From a virus, in the IMG/VR virus record IMGVR_UViG_3300045125_000034, positions 1 to 64,000 of that record: a stretch of DNA of 64,000 nucleotides, one strand, 5' to 3'. A model generated the notes under the pieces. That model had not been told where the DNA came from and did no database searches. It worked only from the letters and a program-made list of their open reading frames with translations. Position numbers and translations under genes: made by a program. This document shows, one piece after another, positions 41,574 through 64,000 of the stretch; the first letter of the stretch is position 1; each line of letters starts with the position of its first letter.

Positions 41574-41581
41574 ACCTGTAT

Positions 41582-41655
41582 GGGATCGTAGACCAACGGC
41601 AGAGTCAACGGATTTAAAAATCCGTAAAGTATGGGTTCGAATCCCATCGGTCCTA
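41582..41655 (+). tRNA. tRNA with ambiguous anticodon (UAA or UUA), class I
   Basis: Acceptor GGGATCG / CGGTCCT, T-arm ATGGG-TTCGAAT-CCCAT, short variable loop. The anticodon arm ACGGA-TTTAAAAA-TCCGT has an 8-nt loop, so one homopolymer base is probably extra. Removing an A gives TAA; other corrections give TTA. A short variable loop is not expected for tRNA-Leu. Confidence 0.7.
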
Positions 41656-41659
41656 TAAT

Positions 41660-55015: not shown

Positions 55016-56082
55016 ATGAGCGACTTTCTAAAGAGCATGATTCGTGCTTCGGGTAACGAGTGGGCAACCATAGCAGAGGATGGAGTTGATGGTGATGTTG
55101 CGGGCTTTGTAGACACAGGCTCGTACATCTTCAACGCTCTCCTGTCGGGTTCACTCACAGGCGGTATCGCAAGCAACAAGATCCTTGGTATCGCAGGCGA
55201 GAGTGCTACGGGCAAGACCTACTTTGCCCTTGGTATCGCCGCACAGTTCTTGAAGGACAATCCCGATGGAGCGATCCTCTACTTTGACAGCGAGCAGGCT
55301 GTTACGAGTGAGATGATCTCAGGCAGAGTGTCTTGACCCCGCTCGCGTAGCCGTATTCCCTGTGGCTACTGTGGAGCAGTTCCGTCATCAGTTGCTACAG
55401 ATCATAGACAACTACGGCAAGTTGGACGAGAAGAAGCGTAAGCCCTTCTTTGTGGTGTTGGACCTCGCTAGGCATGTTGAGCACTAGCAAGGAAACCAAC
55501 GACACACTTGAAGGCAAGGAAGTCAGGGACATGACTCGCTCGCAGGTTATCAAGGGAACCTTCCGAGTCCTGACCATGAAGTTGGGTCTGCACAAGATCC
55601 CGATGGTTGTGACGAACCACACCTACGATGTCGTTGGTGCGTATGTTCCGACCAAGGAGATGGGTGGTGGTAGCGGTCTGAAGTATGCTGCGTCTACCAT
55701 CGTTTACCTGTCCAAGAAGAAGCATAAGGTAGATGACGAGGTTGTGGGTAACATCATTCATTGCAAGTTGTATAAGGCTCGCTTCACCCGCGAGAACAAG
55801 ATGGTTGATGTGCTACTTACCTTTGACAAGGGGCTAGATAGATACTATGGTCTAGTTGACCTTGCTCTCTCGCAGGTAGTGTTCAAGAAGGTTTCCACCA
55901 AGATTGAACTACCCGATGGGACTACCGCCTTTGAGAGTCAGATCAACAAGAACCCCACCAAGTTCTTCACTGAGCAGGTCATGAAGTCCCTTGAGGCAGC
56001 AGCCGCGAAGGAGTTCAAGTACGGTAGCGACAGCGAAAGTGAAGTAGAAACAGAAAAGGAATTGGAGACAGCAGATGAGTAA
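55016..56082 (+). CDS. uvsX: UvsX/RecA-like recombinase, frameshifted
   Basis: About 353 aa. [60 protein letters not shown] (Walker A), [70 protein letters not shown], and an acidic C-terminus. Order and [11 protein letters not shown] strand are those of T4 UvsX. Strand exchange and recombination-dependent replication. Confidence 0.95.
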
Positions 56083-56754: not shown

Positions 56755-57549
56755 GTAAAGGTCTAATACTTGGGTCTTCAAAGGGTCTTTCTCTAGACCA
56801 ACTATATCCTTGGGCATCTTCTGCTTCAGAAACAGGGAATAGAGTTGTGTTACTTAACATGGATGGAGAGAGTAACAAAATGCTATCCCTTCAGTTAAAG
56901 GGGATTGGGATTGAAGTCAGGGATGTTGTTTCCGACAACACACTATCTCCGCATAATGCTAGATTTGTGGCTCAACACGAATACTTAAGCCGGGCGCGAC
57001 GAGGAATATTGTGTAATCACAGATGTTAGAGATGTTTTGTTTCAGGAGTGATCCAATAGAATGGATCACCAATAACATAGAAAATTATGATGTTGTATGT
57101 GCTAGTGAGGGTCTTCTTTATAAGGACGAACCTTGGGGTAGAGGTAATTTGATAGAGGGGTATCCCGATTTGTATGAGAGCCATAAAGACAACCCAATCA
57201 TGAATGTTGGTGTTATTGGGGAAATGCAGAGGAAGTTGCAAAGGTTTGTCTTAGAATATTTGAAATGTGCAAGGCAAACAAAGCATACTTAGCAGATCAA
57301 TCGTCTTTTAATGTTATCTGTGCTGACAGCACTATGCAGAACAAAATAAAGAAGACAACATCAAGAGATCCTTTTGCCTTGCATTGTAGTTGCTTGATTA
57401 GAAACTGCCGAGGTAGTAGTTTTGTCTTGAATGAGTCTACGGTTCATCTGTTAAAAGATCCCGAACCAATAAACGAAAAAGGAGTTCTAAAAACTCCGAG
57501 TGGTATCCCTTATTCTATAGTGCATCAATGGGATAGGATGCCGTCATGA
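56751..57549 (+). CDS. Glycosyltransferase-like protein, frameshifted
   Basis: About 265 aa. [53 protein letters not shown] across frames (DVRD acidic motif), DPIEWITNNIENYDVVCASE, NPIMNVGVIGEMQRKLQRFV, AYLADQSSFNVICADSTMQN, KTPSGIPYSIVHQWDRMPS. The VITDVRDVxFQ.DP and IxNxGxIG segments are found in nucleotide-sugar glycosyltransferases. Coupled on both sides by overlaps. Confidence 0.6.
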
Positions 57550-58348
57550 AAACTGTTTGCAGAAGATATCCCGATTGGTTAAATTTTGAATTGGATTTCC
57601 CTACAGAGATTCATTTACAATACCCAGAATTTCCATTTGACCCCAAAGATGGGGTATACCGAGTGTATTGTGATTCCTTTGAGCCATCGACTTCTTGTGC
57701 AAATCCAAAACAAATAAGTAAGATATTGCTCCTGTATGACCTCATTCTTACGAAAAATGAAAACATAGTTTCGGAATATCCAAACGCTAAGTTGTTCTTC
57801 TTTGGTAATTCTATGATGTATCCTGATGTTCCCGGCAGGAAAGAATTCTCCGTGTCTTTCTTGACAACAAAACCCAATTGGCATTTGCCGGGCTATGATT
57901 TGAGGTATGAACTGTGGGGCAAACAAGACGAGATACTTATCCCCAAGGTATTCTATAGTTCAAGAAGAATGCCAATAGATTCTTCTCGTATACTTCCGGG
58001 AGATGGCGGGGACAAGGATAAGATGTTGATGTTTGAATCAATGTTTCACATAGCAATAGAAAATACCAATGAGAAGAACTACTTCACAGAGAAGATAAAC
58101 GATTGTTTTTGGACGGAAACAGTACCCTTGTATTGGGGCAACAAAGATACAATCAACAGTAAATTTGACTCTCGGGGGTAATACACTTCCAATCAATACC
58201 AGAACTGATAGAGTTATGCAATTCTCTAACGCCCGACGATTACACTTCTAGGCTTGAGAGTATAAAGAACAACAAAGAACTATCTAAAGAATACTCAAGG
58301 CATATGAACGAACGCATCCGTGATGAAATTTTAATGAGAAGAAGATGA
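57546..58348 (+). CDS. GT10 (fucosyltransferase-like) glycosyltransferase
   Basis: About 267 aa; 211 codons open. VCRRYPDWLNFELDFPTEIH, LLYDLILTKNENIVSEYPNA, ILPGDGGDKDKMLMFESMFH, IAIENTNEKNYFTEKINDCF, WTETVPLYWGNKDTINSKFD, then FQSIPELIELCNSL. F(H)IAIENtnekNYFTEKinDcfwtetVPlYwG is the donor-binding block of GT10 enzymes. One indel near 58178. Confidence 0.85.
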
Positions 58349-59072
58349 AGTGGTGTTTTGGAATAGTGTTCAATGGTATTGACTATTTGAGCAGACAAAT
58401 AGTCTCAATCAAGAACCAAGAGGGTATCTGTACAAACGACTATCAGATAATTTTAGTAGGGTCCAAGCACAGACGAATCTTCAAGATTGATTTCTTCGTT
58501 TCGGTCTGAAGGAATAGATATCTCTCTTATACCGTTTCAAGACACATCCGAAATGGGCTGGATAACTAAGAAGAAGAATCTTGTGGCTTACATGTCCAAG
58601 TACGAGAACTTAGTTATAACACACGACTATGTTGGTTTCTGCCGTGGGTGGTATAGAAATTTTGTTGAGTTTGGTGAGGATTGGGAGGTGTGCATGAACT
58701 CAATAAGAAGAGATGATGGTAGAAGGTTTAGGGATTGGATTACCTTTAAGGAATGGTGGGGTTGGCCTCTATTTCTTCCTTATGAAGTTACGGATCAAAC
58801 ATCCAAAATGTATGTTAGCGGAACTTATTGGTGCGCGAAGAAACACTACATGGTCAAAAACCCATTAAACGAAAAATCTAAGATGGGGGCAGGGTGAAGA
58901 CCTAGAGTGGTCTCATAGATGCAGGCACACTTGGAACTATAAGATAAACAAGAACTCTGTAGTTAAGTTGATGAAAGAGAAATTATGGAAGGGACAGCCC
59001 GACTATAGCCCGCACCCAGATACTGATCCTAATGTTGATGAAATTCTTACATCGTCAGAGGTTCAACCATGA
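58345..59072 (+). CDS. Glycosyltransferase-like protein, frameshifted
   Basis: About 240 aa. MKWCFGIVFNGIDYLSRQIV, SIKNQEGICTNDYQIILVGS, MGWITKKKNLVAYMSKYENL VITHDYVGFCRGWYRNFVEF, MYVSGTYWCAKKHYMVKNPL, EDLEWSHRCRHTWNYKINKN. The early strand order and ITxKKNLxxxxxxYENLvixHDYvxF (DY in place of DxD) fit GT-A transferases with GT2-like fold. Overlaps both neighbours. Confidence 0.6.
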
Positions 59073-59517
59073 AGGTTATAGCACACAGAGGAAATGTGTT
59101 TGGTCCGATACCTCTAAGGAAAACAATCCAAAGTATATTGAAGCAGCATTAGATCTTGGGTTTGATGTTGAGATTGATGTTTGGTTTGACGAGAGTGATT
59201 CGTGCGCGGGGTATTATCTCGGTCACGATCATCCCTTGTATAAAATTGATGCCTCTTGGTTGATGCGTGATGGAGTTTGGTGTCATGCCAAAAACCAGAA
59301 GGCACTAGAAAGAATGTTTTGTGACAAAATCCCCAACTATTTTTGGCATCAGGAAGATAGATTCACCATAACTAGTAGAGGTGATATATGGTGTTACCCA
59401 AACAATCCTAGTCGGTCGGGGATATTAGTCGATGTAGGTAGACCCAAACGAGGTCTTGATATTCGTGGAGTGTGTACAGACTACGCAAATGAATGGAAAA
59501 TGGAGTATAGAACATGA
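59069..59517 (+). CDS. Glycerophosphodiester phosphodiesterase-like protein, frameshifted
   Basis: About 150 aa. MKVIAHRGNVFG, NPKYIEAALDLGFDVEIDVW, YYLGHDHPLYKIDASWLMRD, VWCHAKNQKALERMFCDKIP, YFWHQEDRFTITSRGDIWCY. HRGN, ENxPxYI..AL..GfdVEIDVW, LgHDxPxY and CHaKN are the catalytic blocks of GDPD-type TIM barrels (metal ligands E, D, H). Shorter than bacterial GlpQ. May process a glycerol-phosphate-containing glycan. Confidence 0.8.
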
Positions 59518-60481: not shown

Positions 60482-61199
60482 CCCCGATGAAGTTCAGGTA
60501 GTTATACCTCTTGCGGGGGAAGGCAAAAGATTTAGAGACAGGTATTCTTGCCCAAAGCCTCTCATAGACATAAGAGGCGAAAAGATGATATCTTTAGCCT
60601 TTAGAACTTTAGATATTCCTCACAGCAAAGCAGTATTCATAATACGATCAGATCACGATTACGATGGTATGTTATCAAAAACCATAGAGGAATTTTGTCC
60701 GAAAAGTTCTATAGTAGTTGTTGATAAATTGACAGAAGGTCCGTGCTGTACCGCTTTGTTGGCAAAACCACATTTAGAATCAGATAAACCTCTCGTTGTA
60801 GCGAATTGCGATCAGGTTATGAGATGGAGTGGTTCTAGGTTTATAAGATATTGTATAAGAGAAAACTATGATGGGGTTGTAGTAACCTATCATGAAGCCA
60901 CACCGAAAAATAGTTACGCTCGTTTAAACAAAAATGGGGATGTTGTTGAAGTAAGAGAGAAGAATCAGATAAGTTGTGTATCTTTGAACGGCATACACTA
61001 TTGGAAGAGAGCAGATTATTTCTTCGAATCTTCCGAAAAGATGATGAAAGCAGATGATAGGACTAACAATGAGTTTTACATTGCTCCCTCTTACAATTAC
61101 ATGATTGCTGATGGGCATACCGTTGGTATCTACCACATTCCCAATGAACAGCATTATGCTATCGGTACTACTCAAGATTTGGAGACCTACATAGGATAG
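60478..61199 (+). CDS. Sugar-phosphate nucleotidyltransferase, near intact
   Basis: About 240 aa. EVQVVIPLAGEGKRFRDRYS CPKPLIDI (G-x-G-x-R-F...PKPL signature), AVFIIRSDHDYDGMLSKTIE, LTEGPCCTALLAKPHLESDK, PLVVANCDQVMRWSGSRFIR, ATPKNSYARLNKNGDVVEVR, NEQHYAIGTTQDLETY. NTP-transferase fold that makes NDP-sugars or acts on phosphorylated polyols. The first four codons need one base removed. Confidence 0.9.
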
Positions 61200-61220: not shown

Positions 61221-61548
61221 ATGATAGTTGATATGATTCAGAACTATGTCTCGTGGGTGGTTTGTTGGAGACTTCGAACCTAGTATTCACAAAACTGATA
61301 AATTTGAAGTAGGCGTTCTTACCCACAAGAAGGGCGAGAAGTGGGCTGCTCATTACCATAAAGAAGCAAGAGAGATAAACCTTCTACTTGAGGGTAAGAT
61401 GTTGATGCATGGAGTGGAGTTGCAAGAAGGATCCATTTTTGTTCTTGAGCCTTGGGAAGTAGCAGATCCAATATTTCTTGAAGACTGCAAAGTTCTAGTA
61501 ATCAAAACCCCGTCTATAAAAGGAGACAAATATGAAGTTGTTTGTTGA
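61221..61548 (+). CDS. Cupin-fold protein, frameshifted
   Basis: About 108 aa. MIVDMIQNYV then GWFVGDFEPSIHKTDKFEVG, EKWAAHYHKEAREINLLLEG KMLMHGVELQEGSIFVLEPW EVADPIF. HYHKEA...E...l.EG.......l..G..fvlePw is the two-motif cupin barrel with likely metal ligands His, His, Glu. Isomerase, epimerase or regulatory roles are common. Directly upstream of the RuBisCO-like gene, with a 17-nt overlap. Confidence 0.75.
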
Positions 61549-62789
61549 TGAAAACAGCATTGATCGTGAGAAGTATTTTGTTGTTACCTATATGGTCGAG
61601 TCTGATAAAAGTCTTAGAGATGCTGCTTGGAATATTGCCATAGGTCAAAGTGTCGGAAACCCAAATGTTAGGGGAACAGGTGGGAGACCGGAAGACCTGT
61701 TTAAAAATCATTCGTGTCTCATCCTCGGGGACGAAGGGGAACTTAGTGTCCAAAAAATAGGAAAGGTCAAGATTGCTTTCCCCGTAATCAATACAGATTG
61801 GGAAACAGACGGAATTAGCCATTTCATGTGCCAAGTCATGGGTGGGCATGTGGACATTGATTTGGTTAAGAGATGTCGTGCTATTGATATAGATTTCCTG
61901 CATAGTGTTACAAAGCACTTCAAAGGTCCACGGTTTGGAATAACGGGAATGCGTGAATTTACAGGGCAATACGATAAGCCACTTTTGGTGCTATCATAAA
62001 GCCTAAGATTGGAATAAGCCCAGAGACACTATTGGATATGGTTAAGGAACTAGTAGAAGGTGGGGTTGACTTCTATAAAAGAAGATGAAATCATGTCCAA
62101 CCCATCATTCTGCCCGCTAGACACTCGGGTGGGTATGATCTCCAATTACTTGGCATCACAATCAAGAAATGTGGTATTTTGCCACACCATAAACTGCGAT
62201 CCGCATGTTCTAGAAAGTAGAGTTAGTCGCATACATTCTCTTGGCGGTAATGGAGTACACATCAATGTATGGAGTGGGTATGGTTCATACAACAGCATAC
62301 GAAAGATGGATCTGCCGATATACATTCATTTCCAGAGTAGTGGAGCAAAAGTCACAACCAACATTACAAATCAGTTCAGTATTAGTTGGCCTGTCATCTG
62401 CAAATTGGCAACAATGATGGGAGTCGATACCATTCAGACGGGAATGGTTGGTGGATACAGCAACGATAATCCCGAAGAAATTCTAGAGTGTGTTCGTATT
62501 TTACAACAGGGGAATACTGTCCCTGTCCTGAGTTGCGGATTGCATCCGGGTCTTGTTGATAAGATAACCTCACTAGTAGGTAACGACTATTTGGGCAATG
62601 CTGGCGGTTCAATTCACGGACACCCAAATGGAACACTATCGGGTGCTAGAGCAATGCGTCAGGTCCATAGACAAAACTTATGGGGTCGAGTACAATGAGG
62701 CAATAGCCAAATGGGGTAAGGTTCAGCCCGAATTCAACATAAAGCAGTTGTATGAAACTGTAGAGTACCAACTAAATTCTAAGGAGTAA
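61532..62789 (+). CDS. RuBisCO-like protein (form IV type), frameshifted
   Basis: About 415 aa, breaks near 61997 and 62075 and 62665. YFVVTYMVESDKSLRDAAWN, IAFPVINTDWETDGISHFMC QVMGG, FKGPRFGITGMREFTGQYDK PLLVLS, IIKPKIGISPETLLDMVKEL VEGGVDFIKEDEIMSNPSFC PLDTR, FCHTINC, DLPIYIHFQSSGAKVTTNIT, DTIQTGMVGGYSNDNPEEIL, VPVLSCGLHPGLVDKITSLV, LGNAGGSIHGHPNGTLSGAR. These follow the RuBisCO large-chain order: KPKxG loop, carbamylation-site block GGxDFxKxDE, xxIHxxS, GGxxGxPxGxxxGAxAxR. Flanked by NTP-transferase, cupin, methyltransferase and epimerase, so likely an isomerase, enolase or decarboxylase on a phosphorylated sugar acid rather than CO2 fixation. Confidence 0.85.
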
Positions 62790-62796
62790 ATGTAAT

Positions 62797-63403
62797 ATGC
62801 AATGGCAAACAGATCTAATAGCAGACATTCGGTTTAATGATCCTAACATAGATGATAGAGATGATGTAACCGGCTTGTTTCTGGCTATGGGTAGACATTT
62901 CGAATTTACGAATGACAACCATACAGCATTACAGAAGGCAATAAGTGCCTGTAGAACTCCCCCAAAAACTTTTTGAAATTGGTGTGTGCAGAAATGCATC
63001 ACAGTCATCTACACATACTATAATAAAAAATGTTCCATCGGACGGGGTTTATCTCGGTGTGGATCTTGATGACAAGACATTTTTAAACGACGCATCAAAG
63101 GGTATACACACCATAAAAACATCATCTTCAAACTACGATGAGGTTGTTAATAGATTAACTAGTCTTGGTGTTAAGACTTTGGATTTCATATTCATTGATG
63201 GTTGGCACAGTATAAATCAGGTTCTTAAAGATTGGGAGTATACAAAACTATTGTCTGACGGTGGTGTTGTTGGGTTCCATGATACTCGACTGCATCCGGG
63301 TCCGCACTATTTTATAAACAATCTGAATAGAGATAAGTGGGAAGTACACTCCAATCTTTGCCCCAATGATTGGGGTTTGGGATATTGTAGAAGAAAGGAT
63401 TGA
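62797..63403 (+). CDS. SAM-dependent methyltransferase-like protein (Methyltransf_24 type), frameshifted
   Basis: About 201 aa. MQWQTDLIADIRFNDPNIDD, TALQKAISAC, then LPQKLFEIGVCRNASQSSTH, SDGVYLGVDLDDKTFLNDAS, TLDFIFIDGWHSINQVLKDW, LLSDGGVVGFHDTRLHPGPH. fEIGvxrnxSs ... ylGvDlDd ... lDfIFIDGwHsxxxvxxDw ... l..GGvvgFHDt is typical of Methyltransf_24-type enzymes. Substrate likely a sugar or small metabolite of the same pathway. Confidence 0.8.
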
Positions 63404-63407
63404 TAAC

Positions 63408-64000
63408 TTGAGAAAACTGCATTAGTCACAGGAGCGTCGGGTTTCATCGGCTCAAACTTGGTTGACCATCTTGTTGGTTTGGGGTGGGATGTTGTTGGTA
63501 TAGACAATGAATCTAGCCTAGCCCACGACAAGTTCCACTACAACTCAAAGGCATCATATGTACCAAAGGATGAAGCAGACATCTCTACAGAGAAGCCTTG
63601 GAAGGCATTAGCCAACCATAAGTTTGACTATGTGTTTCATATGGGTGCAGAGTGTCGTATTCAGCAATGCATAGAGAATCCTGCCCTATGCATATCAACT
63701 AATGTTTTAGGTACAGTAAAGACTCTTGAATACGCCGCGAAGATAGGAGCAAAGAGACTTGTGTTCTCGTCCACCTCCTCCATATACTCAGGCTGTGACT
63801 ATGCAGCAGATGAGAACGAAGAGCCGATCTGCATCAATCCCTACGCTTCCACTAAACTTTCGGGAGAGGTCTTCTGCAAGCAGTACAGTATGACTACTGA
63901 GTTGGATACGGTTGTGCTTCGTTACTTCAATGTGTACGGCGAGAGACAGCCAATCCGTGGTTCGTATGCTCCTGTAATCGGTGTGTTTCAACGACAACTA
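63408..64000 (+). CDS. NAD-dependent sugar epimerase/dehydratase, 3' truncated by window
   Basis: At least 197 aa. EKTALVTGASGFIGSNLVDH (Rossmann GxxGxxG), GWDVVGIDNESS, YVFHMGAECRIQQCIENPAL, STNVLGTVKTLEYAAKIGAK, RLVFSSTSSIYSG (catalytic Ser/Thr), INPYASTKLSGEVFCKQYS (YxxxK), LDTVVLRYFNVYGERQ. Extended SDR of the UDP-glucose epimerase/dTDP-glucose dehydratase group. The start is disturbed by one missing base in TTGAGAAAAC. Continues beyond 64000. Confidence 0.9.

Follow-up and report, generated by a model that had tools for sequence, protein, structure and literature searches.

A RuBisCO-like clade of environmental phages and SAR11 bacteria that probably works in nucleotide-sugar synthesis

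The 64,000-nucleotide stretch of viral DNA analysed here (hereafter the window: positions 1 to 64,000 of the 145,204-base IMG/VR record IMGVR_UViG_3300045125_000034) encodes at 61532-62789 a RuBisCO-like protein (RLP) that belongs to a clade of its own. This clade is real, widespread, and borne by phages as well as by SAR11 bacteria, and it probably works in nucleotide-sugar synthesis. Its members keep the metal site of the RuBisCO family and have replaced the residues needed for CO2 fixation, and in most loci they stand close to a sugar-phosphate nucleotidyltransferase, in a place that other phages fill with unrelated sugar-phosphate enzymes.

The window gene lies on the forward strand and is split over three reading frames. 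Translation and comparison with relatives place the N-terminal part, which contains IGQSVGNPNVR, in frame 1 (61532-61990). The second part (GAIIKPKIGISPETLLDMVKELVEGGVDF) is read in frame 3 (61987-62074) and holds GAIIKPKIG...GGVDF, the equivalents of K175 and K177 (RuBisCO numbering throughout) mapping to 61999-62001 and 62005-62007. The return to frame 1 (62075-62660), also recognized by PF00016, holds IKEDE...GGSIHGHPNGTLSGARAMRQ, with YIHFQSSG, SCGLHPG and GGSIHGHPNG following the IKEDE metal/carbamate motif, in which residue mapping assigns the carbamate-Lys equivalent to 62078-62080, Asp to 62084-62086 and Glu to 62087-62089. The C-terminal tail (SIDKTYGVEYNEAIAKWGKV...) is in frame 2 (62660-62789), where a tblastn search with L001, the closest intact relative (82% identical), also finds its match. 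The order of RuBisCO large-chain motifs described in the initial annotation of this DNA was found at the positions claimed, and the RuBisCO-like identity proposed there is borne out by the 418-residue read-through product, which matches the Pfam RuBisCO_large profile with an expectation value (E) of 1.7e-37. Against PF00016, the large-chain superfamily model, this product scores 129.8 bits for a cut-off of 30.1, and the open reading frame (ORF) 62060-62695 matches on its own (E 8.7e-20). Solved structures matched by the product are archaeal RuBisCOs, MtnW and other members of the family, with E-values down to 2.9e-40. Because related loci hold intact single-frame ORFs and uvsX in the window is also split, the three-frame arrangement most likely reflects sequencing indels. 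A local mismatch to relatives at about 61660-61700 (VRGTGGRPEDL versus VRN-WETDEL) suggests an additional indel pair. Frame breaks occur all along positions 1-64000, where no ORF exceeds about 340 amino acids and the DNA polymerase gene is split as well. The record appears uncorrected and long-read-like, and gene-level claims therefore need relatives.

Such relatives are abundant. An IMG/VR scan yielded 169 of them, of which the best 80 were kept (L001-L080; 51-82% identity), nearly all single open frames of about 395 amino acids. A search for the gene in related phage contigs had been named beforehand as a check, and some of the contigs recovered also carry the T4 portal or gp23 genes. Ratios of nonsynonymous to synonymous substitutions (dN/dS) of 0.056-0.068 in four unsaturated pairs indicate strong purifying selection on the gene. 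GenBank phages gave no match to the RLP, and the BFVD collection of predicted viral structures yielded nothing with a RuBisCO fold.

The second check named beforehand was a phylogenetic one. In a tree that took in RuBisCO forms I, II/III and III, MtnW, OiaX and other proteobacterial RLPs (a quick search without bootstrap, the Rhodospirillum rubrum RLP being left out), the phage-type RLPs form one clade with a Shimodaira-Hasegawa-like approximate likelihood ratio (SH-aLRT) support of 100 and a stem length of 1.94, separate from RuBisCO forms I-III, MtnW and OiaX. Profile searches of 297 SAR11-family, 380 Patescibacteria, 399 Pseudomonadota and 248 Bacteroidota genomes draw the same boundary, since clade members score above 450 bits whereas all other RuBisCOs and RLPs found score below 220 bits. 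The NCBIfam models of form III RuBisCO, MtnW and OiaX all match the window RLP, but so far under their curated cut-offs that a separate subfamily is indicated: 151.9 bits for a cut-off of 409 and 130.3 for 513.6 with MtnW, 135.7 for 700 with OiaX. Membership of MtnW and membership of OiaX were both rejected on these scores and on the position of the protein outside either clade in the tree. The AlphaFold2 model of L001, built on a 53-sequence alignment, has a mean predicted local distance difference test (pLDDT) score of 91.0, and its nearest neighbours among solved structures, archaeal form III RuBisCO and MtnW, give template modelling (TM) scores of about 0.8 at 24-28% identity.

All 46 clade members compared keep K175, K177, K201, D203, E204, S379 and G381, and all 46 carry the replacements E60G, T65N, N123G, H294Q and K334Y; R295 has become K or S and is R only once, and H327 is Q or H. 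The clade thus holds the carbamate-Lys K201 together with D203/E204 and K175, carbamylation itself being predicted, and has lost the catalytic H294, K334, N123 and E60 of the CO2-fixing forms I-III, which makes it form IV in the broad sense of a RuBisCO homologue without the CO2-fixing residues. With the metal and carbamate residues kept and the carboxylation residues replaced, CO2 fixation is not expected, and assignment as a CO2-fixing RuBisCO was rejected. That H294Q and K334Y are both fixed makes a particular new substrate likely; judged from the alignment, the active site appears to be new but settled. The clade shares with the known form IV proteins (MtnW; OiaX and its relatives) the RuBisCO fold, K175, the carbamate-Lys/Asp/Glu metal site and the loss of the CO2-fixing residues, those proteins serving cellular sugar-phosphate chemistry. 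It differs from them in its separate position, its long stem, its own residues Q294, Y334, N65 and G123 and its occurrence mostly in T4-type phages; its genetic partner is a nucleotidyltransferase, where theirs are salvage or catabolic genes. Archaeal form III RuBisCO is the closest solved structure by sequence and fold (27% identity, TM 0.8), yet the phage RLP lacks its catalytic His294, Lys334 and Asn123, nearly always has Arg295 replaced, and has no genes for ribulose-1,5-bisphosphate formation seen beside it.

The gene neighbourhood points to a glycan pathway. A nucleotidyltransferase of the RmlA/MobA kind lies within five genes of the RLP in 79 of 83 loci, a small GDPD-like protein in 65, and a small cupin in 54, the cupin gene being as a rule the one immediately upstream and often running into the RLP start. 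Methyltransferases, glycosyltransferases and nucleotide-sugar epimerases or dehydratases make up the other genes around this module. The window has the same order as the related loci, all on the forward strand: the GDPD-like protein (59032-59517; phrog_34507, 5.2e-17, with the invariant H-R, E-x-D, H, K pattern), the nucleotidyltransferase, whose N-terminus is lost to a frame break (60585-61199; phrog_3980, 2e-40), and the cupin (61246-61548; phrog_24762, 1.7e-30), whose stop lies within the start of the RLP gene, an arrangement shared by many relatives. The RLP is followed by a frame-broken methyltransferase of the Methyltransf_24/CmcI-like kind (62797-63403; PF13578, 9.6e-7 for ORF 62945-63400) and by an NAD-dependent nucleotide-sugar epimerase/dehydratase that runs off the window (63458-64000; PF01370, 7.9e-28; phrog_540, 2.9e-39). 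The reading frame of the epimerase opens only at 63458; the gene itself may begin slightly upstream in another frame. Profile matches confirmed each of the four neighbours that had been named in the initial annotation, namely the nucleotidyltransferase, cupin, methyltransferase and epimerase.

Cellular copies of the clade are rare, being carried by two of the 297 SAR11-family genomes and one of the 380 Patescibacteria genomes, and they place the same module among surface-glycan genes. One SAR11 genome (L111) has the GDPD-like protein, nucleotidyltransferase, RLP and epimerase inside a surface-polysaccharide cluster that also encodes an O-antigen ligase/polymerase (Wzy_C), a flippase-like protein (weak match), a WecA-type transferase, a GDP-mannose dehydratase (Gmd) and a fucose-synthase-like protein, and that adjoins genes read from sequence as transhydrogenase pntA/pntB. 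In the Patescibacteria contig (L082), the nucleotidyltransferase, GDPD-like protein, cupin and RLP lie among glycosyltransferases, and in the second SAR11 contig (L081) the nucleotidyltransferase and RLP stand beside genes read from sequence as Mrp, HflK/HflC and DegP. That the gene stays linked to a nucleotidyltransferase in the glycan clusters of phages and cells alike identifies a surface-glycan or nucleotide-sugar module, and the sugar/glycan role first proposed for the window gene gains from both the synteny over 83 loci and these cellular counterparts. The suggestion of a purely phage invention did not survive, and a phage-only gene was rejected, as the same clade is present in SAR11 and Patescibacteria genomes. 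In the tree the SAR11 copies nest among phage copies, which implies gene movement between phages and cells.

Evidence on the reaction comes from modules in which another enzyme stands in the place of the RLP. Synechococcus phage Bellamy encodes a homologous nucleotidyltransferase with a C-terminal RpiB domain (PF02502, 3.9e-32) followed by a homologous cupin; the cyanophage clusters (Bellamy gp206-gp207; SynMITS9220M01) share nucleotidyltransferase, cupin and GDPD-like protein with the RLP module, but have the pentose-phosphate isomerase RpiB where the latter has the RLP. In 80 IMG/VR RpiB loci, RpiB is fused to the nucleotidyltransferase in 79, a cupin is nearby in 74 and no RLP was found; conversely, no RpiB was found in the RLP loci. 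Scans with the cupin only gave a third module type, in which phosphomannomutase (PF03332, 1.5e-18) takes this place. Of 163 distinct viral cupin neighbourhoods, 72 have the RLP, 63 RpiB, 12 phosphomannomutase, five only a HAD domain and 11 none of these, and RLP, RpiB and phosphomannomutase never co-occur. Among these last 11 are loci whose RLP lies further off than three genes, together with a group encoding a PfkB-kinase-like protein (weak match). HAD domains also accompany both RLP and RpiB and do not define a clean alternative. Some individual genes of these modules merit mention. Bellamy gp206 (L086:7835-8989), annotated 'phosphatase', is a mis-annotated nucleotidyltransferase-RpiB fusion of a kind common to many IMG/VR loci. 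The phosphomannomutase found in phage nucleotide-sugar modules is of the eukaryotic type (PF03332; L252:7327-8055, L297:7312-8034), and in cyanophages and IMG/VR contigs a HAD_2 domain of the phosphatase/phosphomutase type is fused before the same nucleotidyltransferase (L087:6341-7723, L153:6631-8001, L285:5634-6998).

RuBisCO-fold enzymes act by metal-assisted enolisation of a phosphorylated ketone, and the residues for this step are kept in the clade. Its exchange with RpiB and phosphomannomutase beside the nucleotidyltransferase points to the RLP as the maker or converter of the sugar phosphate on which the nucleotidyltransferase acts. We thus propose that the RLP is an active, form-IV-like RuBisCO homologue in which a carbamylated-lysine/Mg centre would enolise a phosphorylated sugar, either a ketose or an aldose phosphate, with reprotonation at another position, so that the protein would function as an isomerase, epimerase or mutase-like enzyme on sugar phosphates. 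The product of this reaction would pass to the adjacent nucleotidyltransferase to give a sugar or polyol activated by nucleoside diphosphate (NDP), which the glycosyltransferases, methyltransferase and epimerases of the cluster would build into a surface glycan, either the host envelope glycan during infection or a glycan of the virion. That the protein works in a glycan pathway at all is very likely; the fuller statement, an isomerase or epimerase feeding the nucleotidyltransferase for a surface glycan, is moderately probable on the sequence comparisons made here.

Several points weigh against this proposal. The cupin is missing from 29 of the 83 loci, and the RLP and RpiB loci were partly gathered by searching for the RLP and RpiB genes themselves. 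On the nucleotidyltransferase tree, the labels of the exchanged place need only two changes, which speaks for few replacements followed by joint descent rather than for many independent ones and limits the weight of the exchange; it also suggests that the nucleotidyltransferase and its partner enzyme evolve together. As phosphomannomutase is a mutase, and as a PfkB-like kinase may fill the same place (weak match), that place is one for a sugar-phosphate enzyme and not strictly for an isomerase. Isomerase chemistry and substrate, and likewise the NDP-sugar product and its glycan destination, are what we infer from this context. The main rival has the RLP using its RuBisCO fold for decarboxylation or an aldolase-like reaction: like OiaX, it would act on a sugar-acid phosphate and supply a short ketose phosphate, such as tetrulose phosphate, to the nucleotidyltransferase. 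OiaX-type RLPs use branched sugar-acid phosphates and have the metal site in common with the phage RLP, and such a product would suit a nucleotide-sugar module equally well; however, they keep H294, R295 and K334, whereas every member of the phage clade has lost the first and last of these and only one retains R295. They also form a clade of their own, the score of the window RLP with the NCBIfam OiaX model is far under the cut-off, and the RpiB exchange points to isomerisation. We therefore regard this rival as rather improbable.

Known RLPs act in methionine salvage or in the methylthioadenosine (MTA)-isoprenoid shunt, and an RLP-cupin pair is known in R. rubrum. An MtnW-like enolase, or a methylthioribulose-1-phosphate isomerase working with the cupin as in that bacterium, would fit this background and the match of the MtnW model (151.9 bits), but the scores far under the MtnW cut-offs, the place outside the MtnW clade and the lack of MtnW-type residues around H294 and K177 argue otherwise, as do a cupin equally present in RpiB and phosphomannomutase modules and the absence of recurring salvage enzymes from the RLP loci; we hold a salvage role to be distinctly unlikely. 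Viral rbcL genes are commonly annotated as CO2-fixing (PMC8506154, PMC12615777), and one from soil is reported in the latter source to be active with rbcS. For the present clade an auxiliary RuBisCO that fixes CO2 is nevertheless very hard to credit, given the residues replaced in 46 of 46 members and the lack of phosphoribulokinase, small subunit or Calvin-cycle genes among recurring neighbours. A mis-assembled joint between phage DNA and the RLP gene could be suspected from the uncorrected, frame-broken state of the window record, but it is ruled out for practical purposes by 80 other contigs with the same arrangement and by the phage genes found on RLP contigs.

These phage genes agree with the T4-type setting first assigned to the window. 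There, UvsX (55016-56082, forward strand, split by a frame break; phrog_97, 5.7e-27 and 9.1e-40) adjoins the glycan cluster and a T4-type DNA polymerase is also encoded; gp23 and portal gave no match in the window record. The T4 portal occurs on 7 of 19 virus records carrying the RLP, and gp23 on nine RLP contigs, namely 8 of 17 virus records and a phage contig binned in a Bacteroidota metagenome-assembled genome (G003); a DnaB-type helicase adjoins the module in many contigs. The contig JAAXIF010000028.1 (L083), titled Sphingobacteriales, looked like a cellular copy at first, but T4 gp23 shares it with the RLP and it was counted as phage; in all likelihood a phage genome was placed in a bacterial bin. 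Upstream of the module, the window cluster also holds a glycosyltransferase family 10-like ORF (57546-58181, forward strand; PF00852, 8.8e-6). The GDPD-like protein (window 59032-59517, L082:7257-7682, L111:10379-10804) has about 140 amino acids with invariant HR, E-x-D, H and H-x-K; its predicted structure (pLDDT 97.6) had no significant match in the PDB, the best relevant GDPD hit being at E 0.044, so that the label follows from the H-R/E-x-D/H/K motif only, and the protein may represent a new, compact type of fold that carries a phosphodiesterase motif. A likeness of the cupin to mannose-6-phosphate isomerase (7zvm, E 0.0014) was too weak to be used. Finally, ARAGORN calls a tRNA with a four-base anticodon (taaa) at 41581-41656, which could stem from a sequencing error or could be a tRNA akin to frameshift suppressors within a phage tRNA array.

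RuBisCO homologues outside the known forms have been seen before. The Global Ocean Sampling (GOS) survey listed 65 that fit no known form (Yooseph et al., 2007; PMC1821046), noting N123 and H327 as poorly conserved; these groups may include the phage clade, and no viral origin, gene neighbourhood or function is given for them in the parts of the paper available to us. Viral rbcL genes have been reported from Great Salt Lake (PMC8506154), from landfill, where one grouped with 'RbcL-like' proteins and random IMG/VR records gave comparable calls (PMC12607003), and from soil, with carboxylation reported for one (PMC12615777). These papers share with our results RuBisCO-family genes on viral contigs, which they read mostly as carbon fixation; the portions available to us describe neither the residue pattern nor a glycan module. 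The statement in the initial annotation that no such phage gene was known accordingly needs qualifying for viral rbcL and RbcL-like genes as such; for the clade, its module and its role, no description was found within an open-access collection of papers that covers few subscription journals.

With this clade, an enzyme family that is among the best studied gains a branch, probably a biosynthetic one, and because unrelated sugar-phosphate enzymes hold the same place in the module, the clade comes with a short and directly testable list of substrates. To our knowledge, a biosynthetic nucleotide-sugar role has not been reported for the RuBisCO superfamily. We give about even chances to the broader proposition that a clade of this superfamily was recruited as a sugar-phosphate isomerase/epimerase for nucleotide-sugar synthesis, spread mainly by phages, and is interchangeable with RpiB or phosphomannomutase in a modular pathway shared with SAR11. 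Environmental phages carry this RLP branch, and so does SAR11, on which the envelope glycan is probably a site of phage contact. If the proposition is true, many viral 'rbcL' calls would be glycan genes and not carbon-fixation genes; the viral RuBisCO homologues that virome surveys take for carbon-fixation genes may have no such activity, a point that matters for claims about viruses in the carbon cycle.
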